Shown here in pieces: positions 48,391 through 63,508 of a stretch of 64,000 nucleotides of DNA; the stretch's first letter is position 1; each line of letters starts with the position of its first letter. Where the stretch lies: NCBI RefSeq assembly GCF_015550595.1, contig NZ_JADNBB010000007.1:124001-188000 (forward strand). Reading direction: 5' to 3'. The DNA is from Parabacteroides goldsteinii (lineage in GTDB: Bacteria > Bacteroidota > Bacteroidia > Bacteroidales > Tannerellaceae). The notes below the pieces were generated by a model. That model was not told where the DNA came from. It was given only the letters and a program-made list of their open reading frames with translations, and did not search any database. Made by a program: the position numbers and the translations under genes.

Positions 48391-50754
48391 ATGAAAAACT
48401 ACAAGCTAATCTTTATACTCCTGGCAGTTGTGTATGGCGCAAACATACAACTCCCTGCCCAGCAAATGGTTCCCAAGACAATTACACTGACCCAAAAGGC
48501 AAAAGAACAACTGGCCGGTAAGCAGATATTATATATAGAGCGGGAACAGTATGCACCCGACCATCACAACACAGCCACCCTATTCCAGAAGGGAGAGATC
48601 AACGAGAGCAGTTTCTTTCCGGGAGGGGCGATGCGTATCTATGATGTCGACAGCGGGAATATCACGACACTGATAGAATTGAAAGACGGCGTGGTTCGTG
48701 ACCCGGAGTTATCTTTCGACGGGAAAAAGATCATCTTCTCCATGCGGAAGAACAAGGACGACTTTTATCATATCTATGAAATGAATGTGGACGGCAGCGG
48801 TATGAAACAGCTCACCTTCGCAGAAGGAGTATCCGATATCGATCCGCTTTACCTACCGGATGGAGGAATCGTATTCAGTTCTACCCGCCAACCGAAATAC
48901 TGTATGTGCAACCGCCATATTATGTGTAACCTCTACCGGATGGAGGCTGACGGTGCCAACATCACACAGATCGGCATCAGCACATTATTCGAAGGGCACT
49001 CTTCCCTATTGAGCGACGGAAGAATATTGTACGACCGTTGGGAATATGTAGACCGTAACTTCGGAGATGCCCAAGGATTATGGACGGTAAACCCGGACGG
49101 GACAAAGCATTCCATCTATTACGGTAACAATACCCAATCGCCGGGTGGTGTCATCGATGCACGACAAATCCCCGGAACCGATCAGGTTATCTGCATCTTC
49201 GGTTCCTGCCACGACCGCCCCTGGGGTGCACTGGCTATTATCGACCGCAAAAAAGGAGTGGACGGCGTAGAGCCAGTCCTGCAAATATGGCCGGAAGAAA
49301 GCCTGAAGCTGGTGGGTAAAGGTGACCTGGACTCTTTCAAATGGATCGAATACTTCTTCGAAGACCCTTATCCACTCAATGAGAACTTCTTCCTGACCTC
49401 AAGAACGATCTGGGCAAAGCCCGGCGGATGGATGCACCTGGACTCCAAATCGGGTATTTACCTGGTTGGCCGCGACGGTACACAGGAGCTGATACTTGAA
49501 GGCGACCGGAGCCTCTTCGACCCGATGATCATCGAATCGCGTCCCAAACCGCACGCCATTCCTTCGAACAGAAATTATACTGATAAGAAAGGAACCTTCT
49601 ACGTGCAGAACGTTTATCAAGGTACACACATGAAAGGTATAGAGCCCGGTACCGCAAAATATCTGCGAATCATCGAATCGCCGGAGAAAAGAACCTGGAC
49701 ACAGAGCGGCTGGGGCGGACAAGGTGAACAGGCCCCTGCTGTAAACTGGCATAGCTTCGAAAATAAACGTATCCTGGGAGAAGTTCCGGTAGAGGCGGAT
49801 GGCTCCGCCAACTTTGAAGTTCCTTCCGGCACGTTCGTCTACTTCCAGTTGCTGGATAAGGATAAAAAGATGATCCAGTCTATGCGAAGCGGCACAATGC
49901 TTATGCCGGGTGAGGTAAATGGCTGTATCGGTTGCCACGAAGACCGCCTGAGCATACCCAGCACCATGGGCCCAACCCCGTTGGCTCTGAAAAAAGCACC
50001 GGTCAAATTGAGCGGCTGGATGGGTAAAGCCCCAAAGAACTTCTCGTTCATGGAACAGGTACAACCCATCCTGGATAAAAGTTGCGTCCGTTGTCACGAC
50101 TTCGACCCGAAGAACCGCGACAAGCTCGTACTGGCAAAAGACAAGAACCCGTTCTTTAATGCTGCTTACGTAAACCTGTACGTTAAGAAAGAAATCAAGT
50201 TGGTAGGCGGCGGCCCGGCCCCGATACAAGAACCTTACACCTGGGGATCGCATGCCAGCAAACTAACCAAAGTGATCGACAGCGACCATCACGGCGTAAA
50301 GCTATCGGCCAAAGAGAAGGAGATCCTTTATACCTGGATGGACCTGAACGGCGTTTACTACCCGGTTTACGAGTCGGCATTCGACTCGACACTGGCAGGA
50401 CGAAGTCCGCTCTTTAACCAGGAAATAGAAGAGCTGAAACAACTGACCAATATAAACATATGGGATCTGAACCACCACGGACGGAAACTGACCGCGCAAA
50501 TATCCTTCGACCGCCCGGAGGCCAGCCCTTGCCTGGACGGCATACGGAACGATAAACAGAAGTATTCGCGCGCTGTCGAGATCATCCGGACCGGACAGAA
50601 GCGCCTGAAAGCCACGCCGCGCGGTGATATCGAAAAAGACCTTGTCCCCTGCGAACGCCACAAAGCGCAACTCCGCAAATATGCCGAACGGCTTAAGATC
50701 GAACAGCAGAACTGCTCGGTCATCGGGGAATACGGTAAAGTATACGACAGGTAA
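48391..50754 (+). CDS. HzsA-related exported protein with two c-heme motifs
   Basis: A 787-residue protein with a signal peptide (MKNYKLIFILLAVVYGANIQLPAQ in part). The N-terminal half contains PD40/TolB-like propeller units (DPELSFDGKKIIFSMRK, DIDPLYLPDGGIVFSSTRQPK in part). Two c-type heme-binding sites follow, CIGCH (about residue 512) and CVRCH (about 565), in a region like the middle domain of hydrazine synthase alpha subunits. A cysteine-rich patch (KYCMCNRHIMC) may bind another metal. Cytochrome-like proteins are unusual in fermentative gut bacteria. No hydrazine-pathway genes are present, so the reaction is unknown; a periplasmic redox or surface role is plausible. Confidence 0.8.
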   Translation: MKNYKLIFILLAVVYGANIQLPAQQMVPKTITLTQKAKEQLAGKQILYIEREQYAPDHHNTATLFQKGEINESSFFPGGAMRIYDVDSGNITTLIELKDGVVRDPELSFDGKKIIFSMRKNKDDFYHIYEMNVDGSGMKQLTFAEGVSDIDPLYLPDGGIVFSSTRQPKYCMCNRHIMCNLYRMEADGANITQIGISTLFEGHSSLLSDGRILYDRWEYVDRNFGDAQGLWTVNPDGTKHSIYYGNNTQSPGGVIDARQIPGTDQVICIFGSCHDRPWGALAIIDRKKGVDGVEPVLQIWPEESLKLVGKGDLDSFKWIEYFFEDPYPLNENFFLTSRTIWAKPGGWMHLDSKSGIYLVGRDGTQELILEGDRSLFDPMIIESRPKPHAIPSNRNYTDKKGTFYVQNVYQGTHMKGIEPGTAKYLRIIESPEKRTWTQSGWGGQGEQAPAVNWHSFENKRILGEVPVEADGSANFEVPSGTFVYFQLLDKDKKMIQSMRSGTMLMPGEVNGCIGCHEDRLSIPSTMGPTPLALKKAPVKLSGWMGKAPKNFSFMEQVQPILDKSCVRCHDFDPKNRDKLVLAKDKNPFFNAAYVNLYVKKEIKLVGGGPAPIQEPYTWGSHASKLTKVIDSDHHGVKLSAKEKEILYTWMDLNGVYYPVYESAFDSTLAGRSPLFNQEIEELKQLTNINIWDLNHHGRKLTAQISFDRPEASPCLDGIRNDKQKYSRAVEIIRTGQKRLKATPRGDIEKDLVPCERHKAQLRKYAERLKIEQQNCSVIGEYGKVYDR

Positions 50755-50789
50755 GCCGGAAAGTCTACCCGCCTGCGCTCAAAAATATT

Positions 50790-50905
50790 TTGCCATGCGG
50801 TTGGCAAAACTTTGTCACGCACAGGGCAAACTCTTGCCATGCCAGTGGCACAACCTTGCCAACCGCATGGCATGACTCTGTCACTGGTATGACAAGGCTT
50901 TGTCT
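50790..50905. repeat. Array of 22-nt tandem imperfect dyads (first array)
   Basis: Units begin at 50790, 50812, 50834, 50856, 50878 and a partial one at 50900, exactly 22 nt apart. Each follows TTGYCA-N6-TGGCAA plus a 4-nt spacer, so each is a small inverted repeat. Inner six bases vary. Unit 1 (TTGCCATGCGGTTGGCAA) is the reverse complement of unit 4 at 17 of 18 positions, and unit 3 that of unit 5 at 14 of 18. The array lies between convergent genes, 35 bases after the HzsA-like stop. Confidence 0.9.
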
Positions 50906-50916
50906 CTAATATGGAA

Positions 50917-61097: not shown

Positions 61098-62708
61098 TTA
61101 AAGCCCTGCAATAACTTCTTCCAAGGTTGTTTCTGTATTTTCCAAATTTCCCTTTTTCCGGATCCTATAACGCTTACGATCAACAGATGTTGGTTGTATA
61201 TTTAAGAATACAGCCAACTGCTGATTGTTAAAACTTAGTTTCAGTAAACAACAAAAACGCTTTTCTGCCTCAGTCAAACCAAGAAATTTCTTTTGCAGGC
61301 TATCCATAAAAAACGGATATGCCATTCGTAATAACTCATACAATGCCAGCCATTCCTGATCCGTCAACGGATTTTTTTTAGCTTTCTCTATTGATAGGGC
61401 ATTCTGAATCATTTTTTTATACACATCAGAATTTTCCAATATACTCTTTCGAATACCTGATATTTTTTCACTTAATCCCTGCACTGCATATTCTTTCTCC
61501 TGCAATACATTATTTATTTCCATTTGCTTATTTCTCAACTTCTCATTTTTTTTAGTAAGACTATATTTATACTTAGCAACAAGAATAACAAACATCAAAA
61601 ACACAAAAATACTACCAACAAAAAACCGATAATATTCCAACTCCAATTTCGTATTTTCATTCAAAACCTCCACATATTCATATCGTTTTTCAGCTTTTAA
61701 TACATCTGTTTTTGCTTGTAATTCAGCGATGGAGTCTGCAAAATGATTAAAACGTTCATAAAAATCCAACGACAAAGAATAATTACCTAATTCTTTTTCC
61801 AGCATATACAATCTGTATAATATTCCACCGGTCAGTGGTCGGTCAGTCGTTTTATGCAAAATAGCCATTTCTATATATTCACGTGCTTTATCGTATTCTC
61901 CTTTTTTTGTAAACAAATTAGCCAATGCCAAATAGGTCGGTGCACTGCCTGCTTCATCATAAGCAATCGATTTAAACAGATAATCTTCTGCCAATGAATA
62001 GCTATTCATTTCTTTATAAGTATTCCCTAACCGATTCGTTAAAGAGCTTAGCAACAACGAATCATTCAAAGGTAAAGCTAATCGATAAGCATTCTGGAAA
62101 TACTCCGAAGCCTCTCCATATTCTTCTTTTAGCACATGAAGCCACCCTATATTCCGAAGCGAATAAATATAATTCACGCTATCATTCCCTTTTAAGTAAT
62201 ACTCACCACTCAACAATTGGTAACGTTCAGCCTCATCATAATTATCATCAAAATCATACAATCCGGCAATCTTGTTATACAATTTCCCTGTCAACAAATA
62301 TTTTTTCTCTACTTTCGCCATCTCCACCGCCTGCAAATACGATTTCATCGCCCATTCGAAATCCTTTTCCTCTTCGTAAGACATTCCCAAATACAGCAGG
62401 CAATTCATCCTTTCCTCGATTGTACCATATTTTTCATAGTACGTATTCGCTCGTTCCATTTGCGAAACAAACGGCATATCCTCCTTCAATTGCTCAGACA
62501 GTCCGGCATAGATAAGACAAAAATGCGCAAACGCTTTATCATTCAGCACATCCGGATTCGCGATCCCCTCTAAAATCGTAAAGGCACTATCCGGCTGTTC
62601 GATCCGGATCAATTCTTCTGCTTCCTTTATTTTCAAATGAATTTCACTGTTCCTTTGGCAGGAAAAGAACAGACAGAATAGGATAAATAATAAGATAGCG
62701 TTCTTCAT
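61098..62708 (-). CDS. Membrane-anchored TPR protein with C-terminal DNA-binding-like domain
   Basis: A 536-residue protein. A lipoprotein-like signal (LLFILFCLFFSCQRNSE, cysteine at residue 18) is followed by about eight TPR-like repeats (LNDSLLLSSLTNRLGNTYKEMNSYSLAEDYLF and similar, not quoted in full). A single membrane helix (about residues 388-407, FVGSIFVFLMFVILVAKY) leads to a coiled coil. The last 70 residues (LTEAEKRFCCLLKLSFNNQQL, LNIQPTSVDRKRYRIRKK) look like a LuxR-type helix-turn-helix. This fits the Bacteroidetes type of periplasmic TPR sensor with cytoplasmic DNA-binding tail. It sits between the lipoprotein genes and barrel paralog C, which may be its targets. Confidence 0.8.
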   Translation of the reverse strand: MKNAILLFILFCLFFSCQRNSEIHLKIKEAEELIRIEQPDSAFTILEGIANPDVLNDKAFAHFCLIYAGLSEQLKEDMPFVSQMERANTYYEKYGTIEERMNCLLYLGMSYEEEKDFEWAMKSYLQAVEMAKVEKKYLLTGKLYNKIAGLYDFDDNYDEAERYQLLSGEYYLKGNDSVNYIYSLRNIGWLHVLKEEYGEASEYFQNAYRLALPLNDSLLLSSLTNRLGNTYKEMNSYSLAEDYLFKSIAYDEAGSAPTYLALANLFTKKGEYDKAREYIEMAILHKTTDRPLTGGILYRLYMLEKELGNYSLSLDFYERFNHFADSIAELQAKTDVLKAEKRYEYVEVLNENTKLELEYYRFFVGSIFVFLMFVILVAKYKYSLTKKNEKLRNKQMEINNVLQEKEYAVQGLSEKISGIRKSILENSDVYKKMIQNALSIEKAKKNPLTDQEWLALYELLRMAYPFFMDSLQKKFLGLTEAEKRFCCLLKLSFNNQQLAVFLNIQPTSVDRKRYRIRKKGNLENTETTLEEVIAGL

Positions 62709-62807
62709 ATCAATACTTGTGCGTCATTCGAAACGCAATATCCGAATAAAACAGAAAATACACAAATTATCCGGAAGGATATTCGGCAGGCCACAGTCCC
62801 TACAAAA

Positions 62808-62917
62808 TTTCCTGTGGAAGAAACTCGCGTTTCCTGCTTTGGAAACTGCAGTTCCCTCCGCAGGAAATTACAGTTCCCCGCCCAGGAAACTGGAGTTTCC
62901 AAAGCACGAAACTACGA
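62808..62917. repeat. Array of 22-nt tandem imperfect dyads (second array)
   Basis: Units begin at 62808, 62830, 62852, 62874 and 62896, exactly 22 nt apart. Each has TTTCC or TTCCC, about seven variable bases, then GAAAC/T at offset 12 and a short spacer. Unit 2 (TTTCCTGCTTTGGAAACT) matches the reverse complement of 62894-62911 in unit 5 at 17 of 18 positions. The sequence differs from the array at 50790 but the geometry is identical. It lies 100 bases upstream of the TPR regulator start. Confidence 0.88.
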
Positions 62918-63031
62918 GGAAACTGTAATAGACTGACAATCACCACACAAGTCTGTTTTATCAAATCGAATATAAACAAGCTTACATTTTATGAGATTTG
63001 GATCATAATTTATAGTAACCTCATCAAGAGA

Positions 63032-63508
63032 TTACAATGAAAATTTATATCCGATGGAAAGATTTACCCTGGAGTAATCATTACCGGCTATATCTTTGAA
63101 CCAGAAAAAACCGGCATAATATTTACGGTATTCCAATCCGGCCTCAACAGCTGTTCCTACATTAAACGCTAATCGGGATCTACCGACAAAAGGTCCTACG
63201 TTCATACGAATATTCATTACTCTGGTAACCGGTAGGATATAAGAAGCATATAAGGGGACGGTTACCCCTAGCTTTGCATTCGAAAGGCTAAAAAGATACT
63301 GGCTTCCACTATCCAGGTTTAAGAGAATGCCAGGTCGTAAATAAAACTTATCCAGCATCTGAAAAGAGGCTAACGCACCCAGGTGCATATCCCAATGTCC
63401 GTAATATCCGAAATATCCTAATCCGGCACGGGCTTCCAGGTCTATCGCTCTTACATTCTCAACAGCACACAACGCAACAATCATCATCAACAATAAGACT
63501 CTTTTCAT
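63032..63508 (-). CDS. Small outer-membrane barrel protein, paralog C
   Basis: A 158-residue exported protein with a signal peptide (LLLMMIVALCAVENVRA). Shared blocks with paralogs A and B are IDLEARAGLG, DMHLGALASFQMLDKFY, VTVPLYASYILPV, MNVGPFVG, VEAGLEYRKYYAGF and the last strand LSIGYKFSL. It is closer to paralog A in the second half. Its role is unknown. The 324 bases between its stop and the TPR regulator start hold the second 22-nt array. Confidence 0.78.
   Translation of the reverse strand: MKRVLLLMMIVALCAVENVRAIDLEARAGLGYFGYYGHWDMHLGALASFQMLDKFYLRPGILLNLDSGSQYLFSLSNAKLGVTVPLYASYILPVTRVMNIRMNVGPFVGRSRLAFNVGTAVEAGLEYRKYYAGFFWFKDIAGNDYSRVNLSIGYKFSL

Follow-up and report, generated by a model that had tools for sequence, protein, structure and literature searches.

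To our knowledge, many dispersed palindromes of bacterial genomes have no known partner protein, and the pairing of RAYT genes with REPs is the well-known exception. BOX elements of Streptococcus pneumoniae have a modular layout in which one end is fixed and the number of internal units varies, and we know of no protein dedicated to them. MITEs are non-coding and dispersed and have imperfect terminal inverted repeats; they are also expected to have a target duplication and to derive from a parent transposon. In plasmid iterons and multi-operator arrays, binding sites lie about two DNA turns apart beside the gene of the binding protein. CRISPR arrays are recognized by near-identical repeats with unique spacers of ~30 nt. 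RAYT genes are flanked by REPs that co-evolve with them, and RAYT presence correlates with REP abundance (PMC2817692). Y1 genes of the Bacteroidetes subclass 2.6 are reported to have atypical secondary structures on either side, copies of which also occur at other places (PMC6006769).

Here we describe an array of 22-nt dyadic units found in a 64,000-nt stretch of DNA (the window) and related arrays in Parabacteroides. The findings point to an undescribed protein-and-repeat partnership in gut bacteria, in which the protein belongs to DUF6078 (PF19555). A literature search by name and accession found no main-text mention of either DUF6078 or PF19555, and among the matches listed in a search on palindromic, dispersed, and intergenic repeats in Parabacteroides, Bacteroides, and Bacteroidetes, these arrays were absent.

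Results

Architecture of the array

The array is made up of five 22-nt units plus part of a sixth, and two dyads alternate along it. In 22-nt steps from position 62808, the units are TTTCCTGTGGAAGAAACTCGCG / TTTCCTGCTTTGGAAACTGCAG / TTCCCTCCGCAGGAAATTACAG / TTCCCCGCCCAGGAAACTGGAG / TTTCCAAAGCACGAAACTACGA, followed by the partial sixth. A rough unit is AGTTYCC, six variable bases, GGRAACT, and two more bases, and the right arm begins 12 nt after the start of the left. With this layout (AGTTYCC-N6-GGRAACT-N2), a 7-base arm faces its own reverse complement alternately across 6 and 2 bases. Direct reading agrees with the first-pass annotation on the array's position, 22-nt step, and right-arm offset of 12, and on a pair of units within it that are reverse complements at 17 of 18 positions (62830-62847 and 62894-62911). 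That annotation placed the feature at 62808..62917; the array there is real, but the element reaches further, to approximately 62806-62937, and includes a head on the minus strand. The blastn matches define the whole dispersed element (family 1) at 62806..62937 in minus-strand sense, with its head at the high-coordinate end. An alignment of 23 copies places the conserved head, GTCAGTCTATTACAGTTTCCTCGTAGTTTC, at 62908..62937 (minus strand). The unit adjoining it, AGTTTCC-AAAGCA-CGAAACT (62894..62913), has arms and part of a spacer that are conserved among copies. By direct reading, the others are AGTTCCC-CGCCCA-GGAAACT (62872..62891), AGTTCCC-TCCGCA-GGAAATT (62850..62869), CGTTTCC-TGCTTT-GGAAACT (62828..62847, which holds one member of the 17-of-18 pair), and the tail unit AATTTCC-TGTGGA-AGAAACT (62806..62825).

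Tandem Repeats Finder reported a period of 22 at 62841-62897 (score 72). Both strands fold strongly; the array strand folds much more stably than its shuffles, with z scores of -6.9 as DNA and -7.6 as RNA. Rfam 15 contained no known structured RNA that matched the array over its gathering score. Its sole match in the window was a cobalamin riboswitch elsewhere (RF00174, 9603-9801, minus strand, 94.1 bits). We rejected a CRISPR array, as the 22-nt units diverge and the spacers, of 6 and 2 nt, are part of the dyads. The presence of two dyad axes 11 bp apart was discounted as evidence; it is largely a mathematical consequence of a period and one dyad.

The element lies upstream of a gene for a 536-aa tetratricopeptide-repeat (TPR) protein (61098..62708, minus strand, Pfam TPR), relatives of which in G022, G004, G008, and G019 have no element directly upstream. 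One family-1 copy in G004 (L042, G004:C171:2620-2748) is found ~1.5 kb from the TPR-gene relative in that genome (L029, G004:C171:703-1163). On the other side, the 3' end of a 158-aa ORF with no Pfam match (63032..63508, minus strand) faces the element head.

A dispersed family in Parabacteroides

A blastn search with window positions 62600-63060 (461 bases) returned 16 matches in the window's own genome (G000), at nine distinct places including itself. The same query matched 10 of 40 other genomes, all from the same genus; nine of these matched the element, and the match in G008 was to the neighboring gene. An exact 20-mer of the head, ATTACAGTTTCCTCGTAGTT, was found in 17 genome stretches, all Parabacteroides, including P. 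gordonii MS-1, P. faecis JCM 18682, and a Parabacteroides metagenome-assembled genome. The element is ~130 bp long and dispersed in the genus, and in 30 head-bearing copies and the 23-copy alignment the conserved head is ATTACAGTTTCCTCGTAGTTTC, with the units next to it. Judged by eye, units tend to keep their identity by position across copies, and the element has an imperfect terminal similarity, ATTACAGTTTCC/TTCAGTTTCC. A tail near GGAAACTGAA is common among copies, several of which are shorter. The array in the window is a copy of this one ancestral element with its conserved head, and not an array made independently in place.

Orthologous sites carry the element in several species (L012/L030/L037; also L018, L019, L028, and L041). 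Orthologues L032 and L037 differ by one 22-nt unit. Three tRNA-Asn genes adjoin the orthologous copies L012, L030, and L037 in three genomes. Copy L043 (G000:C6:148065-148179) contains a recent, near-perfect expansion of the unit CCGGTGTTTCCCCGGCAAGAAA that its G022 orthologue, L045, does not have.

At one P. gordonii site, the sequences on either side of the element abut in G000 and G022, where ~210 bp with the element are absent; the same site in G004 has, by eye, a GTTTCA-like array. The P. gordonii insert is bordered by a 10-bp direct repeat, the one possible target duplication seen. This difference may reflect insertion or loss, and the site alone leaves the direction undecided. A search for a clean empty site for the window copy did not find one: the flank interval in G022 is 913 nt with no element match, and that in G019 is 309 nt against 894. 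For 32 of 33 copies neighboring genes could be called, placing 21 copies between codirectional genes, 10 between convergent genes, and 1 between divergent genes; these counts are ORF-based and uncurated, have no computed null, and include orthologous copies that are not independent.

A geometry shared by unrelated arms

The window contains another 22-nt array, at 50785..50915, with TTGCCA/TGGCAA arms (TGCCA type). It matches array L049, found beside a DUF6078 gene in G022 (E 3.9e-5), and G022 also has an array (L047) at the same site as this one. Upstream of it, a 787-aa ORF (48391-50754, plus strand), which has the array on its 3' side, matches PF18582, "hydrazine synthase alpha subunit middle domain" (E 9.5e-38), an unexpected name in this organism.

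The first-pass annotation proposed that the two arrays, unrelated in sequence, might share a template rule, as they agree in unit length, arm placement, and the spacing of a complementary pair. In outline this holds: unit length, arm placement, and dyads are shared because both are members of the class of arrays described below beside DUF6078 genes, and each has the arm type of a different DUF6078 gene in G000. The complementary pair does not generalize as part of the rule. Across 33 copies, unit pairs whose spacers are reverse complementary (at least 5 of 6 bases) number only 2 of 44 at a distance of three repeats, compared with 6 of 104 for adjacent units, 5 of 72 for units two apart, and 0 of 18 for units four apart. 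The dyad arms by themselves give any two units a reverse-complementary look.

A scan for periodicity and dyads that uses no sequence, which the annotation had put forward as a check, found 13 lag-22 arrays in samples of three genomes (1.26 Mb) and none in shuffles, with one shuffle per genome sample as the null. All other lags from 16 to 30 gave eight arrays, six of them at lag 21. In the window, the scan found two arrays, both at lag 22; lags 16-21 and 23-30 were empty, as was lag 22 in one shuffled version of the window.

Arrays follow DUF6078 genes

Genes beside the family-1 copies L018 and L028 and beside the TGCCA array L049 are related and belong to DUF6078. The three proteins match PF19555 with E values of 1.6e-45 to 2.1e-44, above the 27-bit cut-off. 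A profile search of 38 Parabacteroides genomes yielded 77 matches in 30 genomes, of which all 74 over the Pfam cut-off were counted and three under it were excluded. Arrays were measured by the best autocorrelation lag (12-45) in a stretch that begins 30 bp ahead of the stop codon and runs 420 bp past it. The best lag was 21, 22, 23, 44, or 45 for 72 of the 74 genes; the two others are L140, a truncated gene, and L163. An array score of at least 0.55 was reached within 420 bp after the stop in 68 of 74 genes (period 21–23 nt or double). On the upstream side, where 64 genes were measured, a score of 0.55 is reached once at lag 22 and once at lag 36. Control ORFs under the same measure were positive in 12 of 260 cases in G000, 8 of 282 in G014, and 12 of 272 in G011 (32 of 814 in total), and two of these 32 are DUF6078 genes themselves (in L220 and L241). 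The difference from controls, calculated with the first 66 DUF6078 genes, is significant (Fisher P 6e-62). Best array windows start at a median of 30 nt after the stop codon, with loci outside the genus included. In six arrays (L122, L123, L130, L152, L161, and L166) the best lag is 44 instead of 22, a higher-order repeat of two units.

G000 has four DUF6078 genes, with GTTTCC, TGCCA, GTTTCA, and CCCCAC arrays. The window array matches G000:C33:199938-200062 (82%, E 2.8e-28), an array directly 3' of the DUF6078 gene at G000:C33:199465-199896. Matches to a model of the element also follow gene presence: the median count is 19 among the 29 genomes that have DUF6078 and 1 among the 9 that lack it (P 0.0019), where the model was built from copies in some of the counted genomes and the counts include both strands of the same array. 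G044, which is 80% complete, has 15 element-model matches and no DUF6078 match.

Proteins in the family are ~145 aa long. Eight residues are invariant in 31 members (P11, C17, C22, C28, C59, G73, P114, and Q117), including four cysteines, and no catalytic signature is evident among them. In three of the 31, the C-terminal half shows a weak helix-turn-helix (HTH)-like similarity (best E 0.0036), and our guess is that the protein has a metal site. Both readings are tentative and draw on weak profile matches. The one structure prediction, made with two sequences, had a pLDDT of 51.7 and was too poor to use. Sequence searches of the PDB with DUF6078, and of defense and phage profile libraries, returned nothing convincing.

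Arm sequences track the protein

Arms of the DUF6078 arrays include GTTTCC, GTTTCA, TGCCA, TTCTCA, CCCCAC, TTACAT, GGTAAT, TTGCAC, GTACTGCAGTAC, and CCCACGGCGTGG, among others, and GTTTC-type arms are the most common. When symmetric 5-mers were clustered strictly, 69 loci fell into 38 clusters, a count that single-locus clusters inflate; about 15 types can be distinguished by eye. Among pairs with less than 0.7 protein similarity, similarity of arm k-mers in the array correlates with that of the proteins (r = 0.45), and none of 1,000 permutations reach this value. Control DNA from the 5' flank gave r = 0.135, also reached in 0 of 1,000 permutations, and distal 3' DNA gave r = -0.005, reached in 570 of 1,000 (the same class of pairs). 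The comparison used 70 loci, and a related comparison of arms and proteins used 78 of 85; loci with weak arrays or short flanks were dropped. Arms track protein similarity better than neighboring DNA does, and part of the correlation can come from the common descent of gene and flank. TGCCA-type arms are found beside similar DUF6078 proteins in Parabacteroides, Bacteroides finegoldii, and a fecal fragment.

Arrays without a matching gene, and DUF6078 outside the genus

A 400-kb sample of G000 contained 10 lag-22 windows. Judged by our arm patterns, four of them have the arm type of a resident DUF6078 gene and five have some other type; the remaining one falls in a long ORF. G011, with no detectable DUF6078, has nine lag-22 windows; two are in long ORFs and one passes the stricter dyad scan. 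These partnerless arrays therefore imply lost DUF6078 genes or other partner proteins. Among the G011 windows is a dispersed 22-nt family with AAAGCTTT arms (L251:6719, L260:128, L261:19557, and L264:9087), and 21-nt arrays were observed at L245:18232 and L247:14609. On G000 contig C84, arrays with other arm types (L218:9052 and L217:8357) adjoin BT4734-like helicase/primase genes, and one of these (L218) is directly 3' of a DUF4248 gene. When 20 PF08800 (BT4734-like primase/helicase) genes were chosen from profile matches, leaving out those beside DUF6078, two had an array by the same measure, one of them a relative of an array already seen, and we rejected PF08800 as a general partner.

When 393 genomes from across the order were searched, 12 had a DUF6078 match, 11 of these over the cut-off; three of the 12 are Parabacteroides. 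Of 17 loci from outside the genus or from an unknown host, nine have a downstream array (one ~300 nt away), five have one only upstream, and three have neither; the upstream-only arrays are partly AT-rich or otherwise weaker, and one is poorly dyadic. A three-unit array follows the DUF6078 gene on plasmid pTS1 of Treponema saccharophilum, a member of another phylum. Five fecal records labeled "Bacteriophage sp." carry DUF6078, and the two examined (H1 and H3, both marked UNVERIFIED) have arrays. We set aside a phage origin, as four scans of viral contigs turned up no relative of the protein.

Discussion

A proposed model of the element and its partner

We consider it probable, at roughly two chances in three, that the array in the window is non-coding and was dispersed as a copy of the array cognate to a DUF6078 protein, and that DUF6078 binds such arrays, copies of which have spread between genes. 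Each unit presents the same half-site twice in opposite orientation, giving a half-site every ~11 bp, or one DNA turn, and this spacing would set successive sites on one face of the helix. DUF6078 would then bind the array as duplex DNA, probably as an oligomer, and arm sequence and protein specificity would co-evolve. Copies of the array, head included, have reached further intergenic sites in trans, seldom ones between divergent genes, and are afterward often kept by descent with an occasional gain or loss of a unit. We hypothesize, by analogy with RAYT genes, that DUF6078 itself, though it has no evident catalytic signature, may cause the copying. Any effect on neighboring genes would most likely be insulation of 3' ends or chromosome organization. 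A broader proposal, less likely than not, is that DUF6078 proteins underlie a new kind of repeat system unrelated to HuH transposases, either selfish or domesticated, with each protein reading its own 22-bp dyad array by a changeable arm code set on a fixed scaffold of two turns and driving the copying of that array to further intergenic sites. If so, the arms beside DUF6078 genes would be a natural specificity code, in an arrangement found in two phyla.

Two alternatives also give the protein a role. In one, arrays form hairpins in 3' UTRs that end or stabilize transcripts, and DUF6078 is an RNA-binding regulator of its own mRNA. The location of arrays just 3' of the gene, their scarcity between divergent genes, and the strong folding of both strands speak for this. 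DNA and RNA folds are both strong, as for any dyad array. At the fifth arm base, which varies, there is no covariation (TA 73, TG 21, CG 7, CA 17; P 0.59), with T-G and C-A similarly common. Across the short spacer the deviation (P 0.013) runs against pairing, and 1 of 18 consensus pairs has a two-sided change. The absent covariation makes selection for an RNA or single-strand hairpin less likely at the fifth arm base and fits recognition of a duplex, and we regard the RNA role as quite improbable. The other alternative is a regulon, in which DUF6078 acts as a transcription factor and selection at the genes it targets, not mobile copying, gave rise to the dispersed arrays. The weakly HTH-like C-terminal half and invariant residues without a catalytic signature are in keeping with it. 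Against it, the conserved head is common to dispersed and gene-linked copies, a sign of copying; of 32 copies, just one has divergent neighbors; and the gene-linked array in this genus is downstream and not at a promoter. A regulon is unlikely on these grounds; it shares the binding step with the preferred reading, and the odds given here do not sum to one.

In a third reading, the arrays are REP-like elements moved by a Y1 (RAYT-type) transposase. Their design and distribution resemble those of REPs and RAYT genes (PMC2817692), and the nearest published statement we know of is that on the Bacteroidetes Y1 subclass (PMC6006769). Tests for Y1 in these genomes speak against this. G000 and G004, both rich in copies, have zero Y1_Tnp (PF01797) matches, and 8 of 38 genomes in the genus have any. 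The 12 Y1 loci in the genus lack the family array, although six have loose single matches with 3–5 mismatches. Movement by Y1 is very improbable as a result. Ordinary slippage, with palindromes by chance, can account for the one-unit difference between L032 and L037 and the near-perfect expansion in L043. It does not provide for a head common to dispersed copies or a period of ~22 across unrelated sequences, and it is contradicted by gene linkage far above controls; we find it scarcely credible.

Comparison with known systems

A copy of DUF6078's cognate array, as we read the element in the window, has features of several known repeats. Like BOX elements, it is a small, modular, dispersed repeat with a fixed end and variable internal units, but its unit length and sequence differ from those of BOX. 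Like MITEs, it is non-coding and dispersed and has, by eye, imperfect terminal similarity; unlike them, it has no parent transposon in view, Y1 being the only type specially searched for, and a possible target duplication, the 10-bp direct repeat, was seen once. The putative binding sites are repeated about two DNA turns apart and adjoin the gene of the putative binder, as in iterons, whereas they are found at many chromosomal loci, are dyadic, and are 3' of the gene, and binding by DUF6078 is our inference.

The closest resemblance is to REP/REPIN-RAYT systems, which are also short intergenic palindromes with several families per genome (PMC2817692, PMC3116915, PMC3733652). There, as here, each family is tied to one dedicated, co-varying gene, and copy number follows gene presence. 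Palindromes that are linked to and co-evolve with a cognate gene are found here by analogy, with DUF6078 in place of RAYT. Of the GTAG or CGTC tag expected at one foot of each REP palindrome, GTAG occurs in the family-1 head but not in each unit; other arm types were assessed by eye. Three differences stand out. DUF6078 has no detectable relation to Y1 HuH transposases; its arrays have a ~22-bp period with two alternating dyads; and in Parabacteroides they are on the 3' side of the gene, whereas REPs are on both sides. What is new here is that the partner is unrelated and the geometry constant, and a cautious reader could see a variant of RAYT-REP.

The arrays offer a clue to what this uncharacterized domain does, a large set of natural protein-site pairs from which DNA recognition could be decoded, and a way to test how short repeats spread in the genomes of gut bacteria. 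Beside RAYT, DUF6078 is a second, unrelated protein family tied to a class of repeats, one that is defined by geometry and not by sequence.
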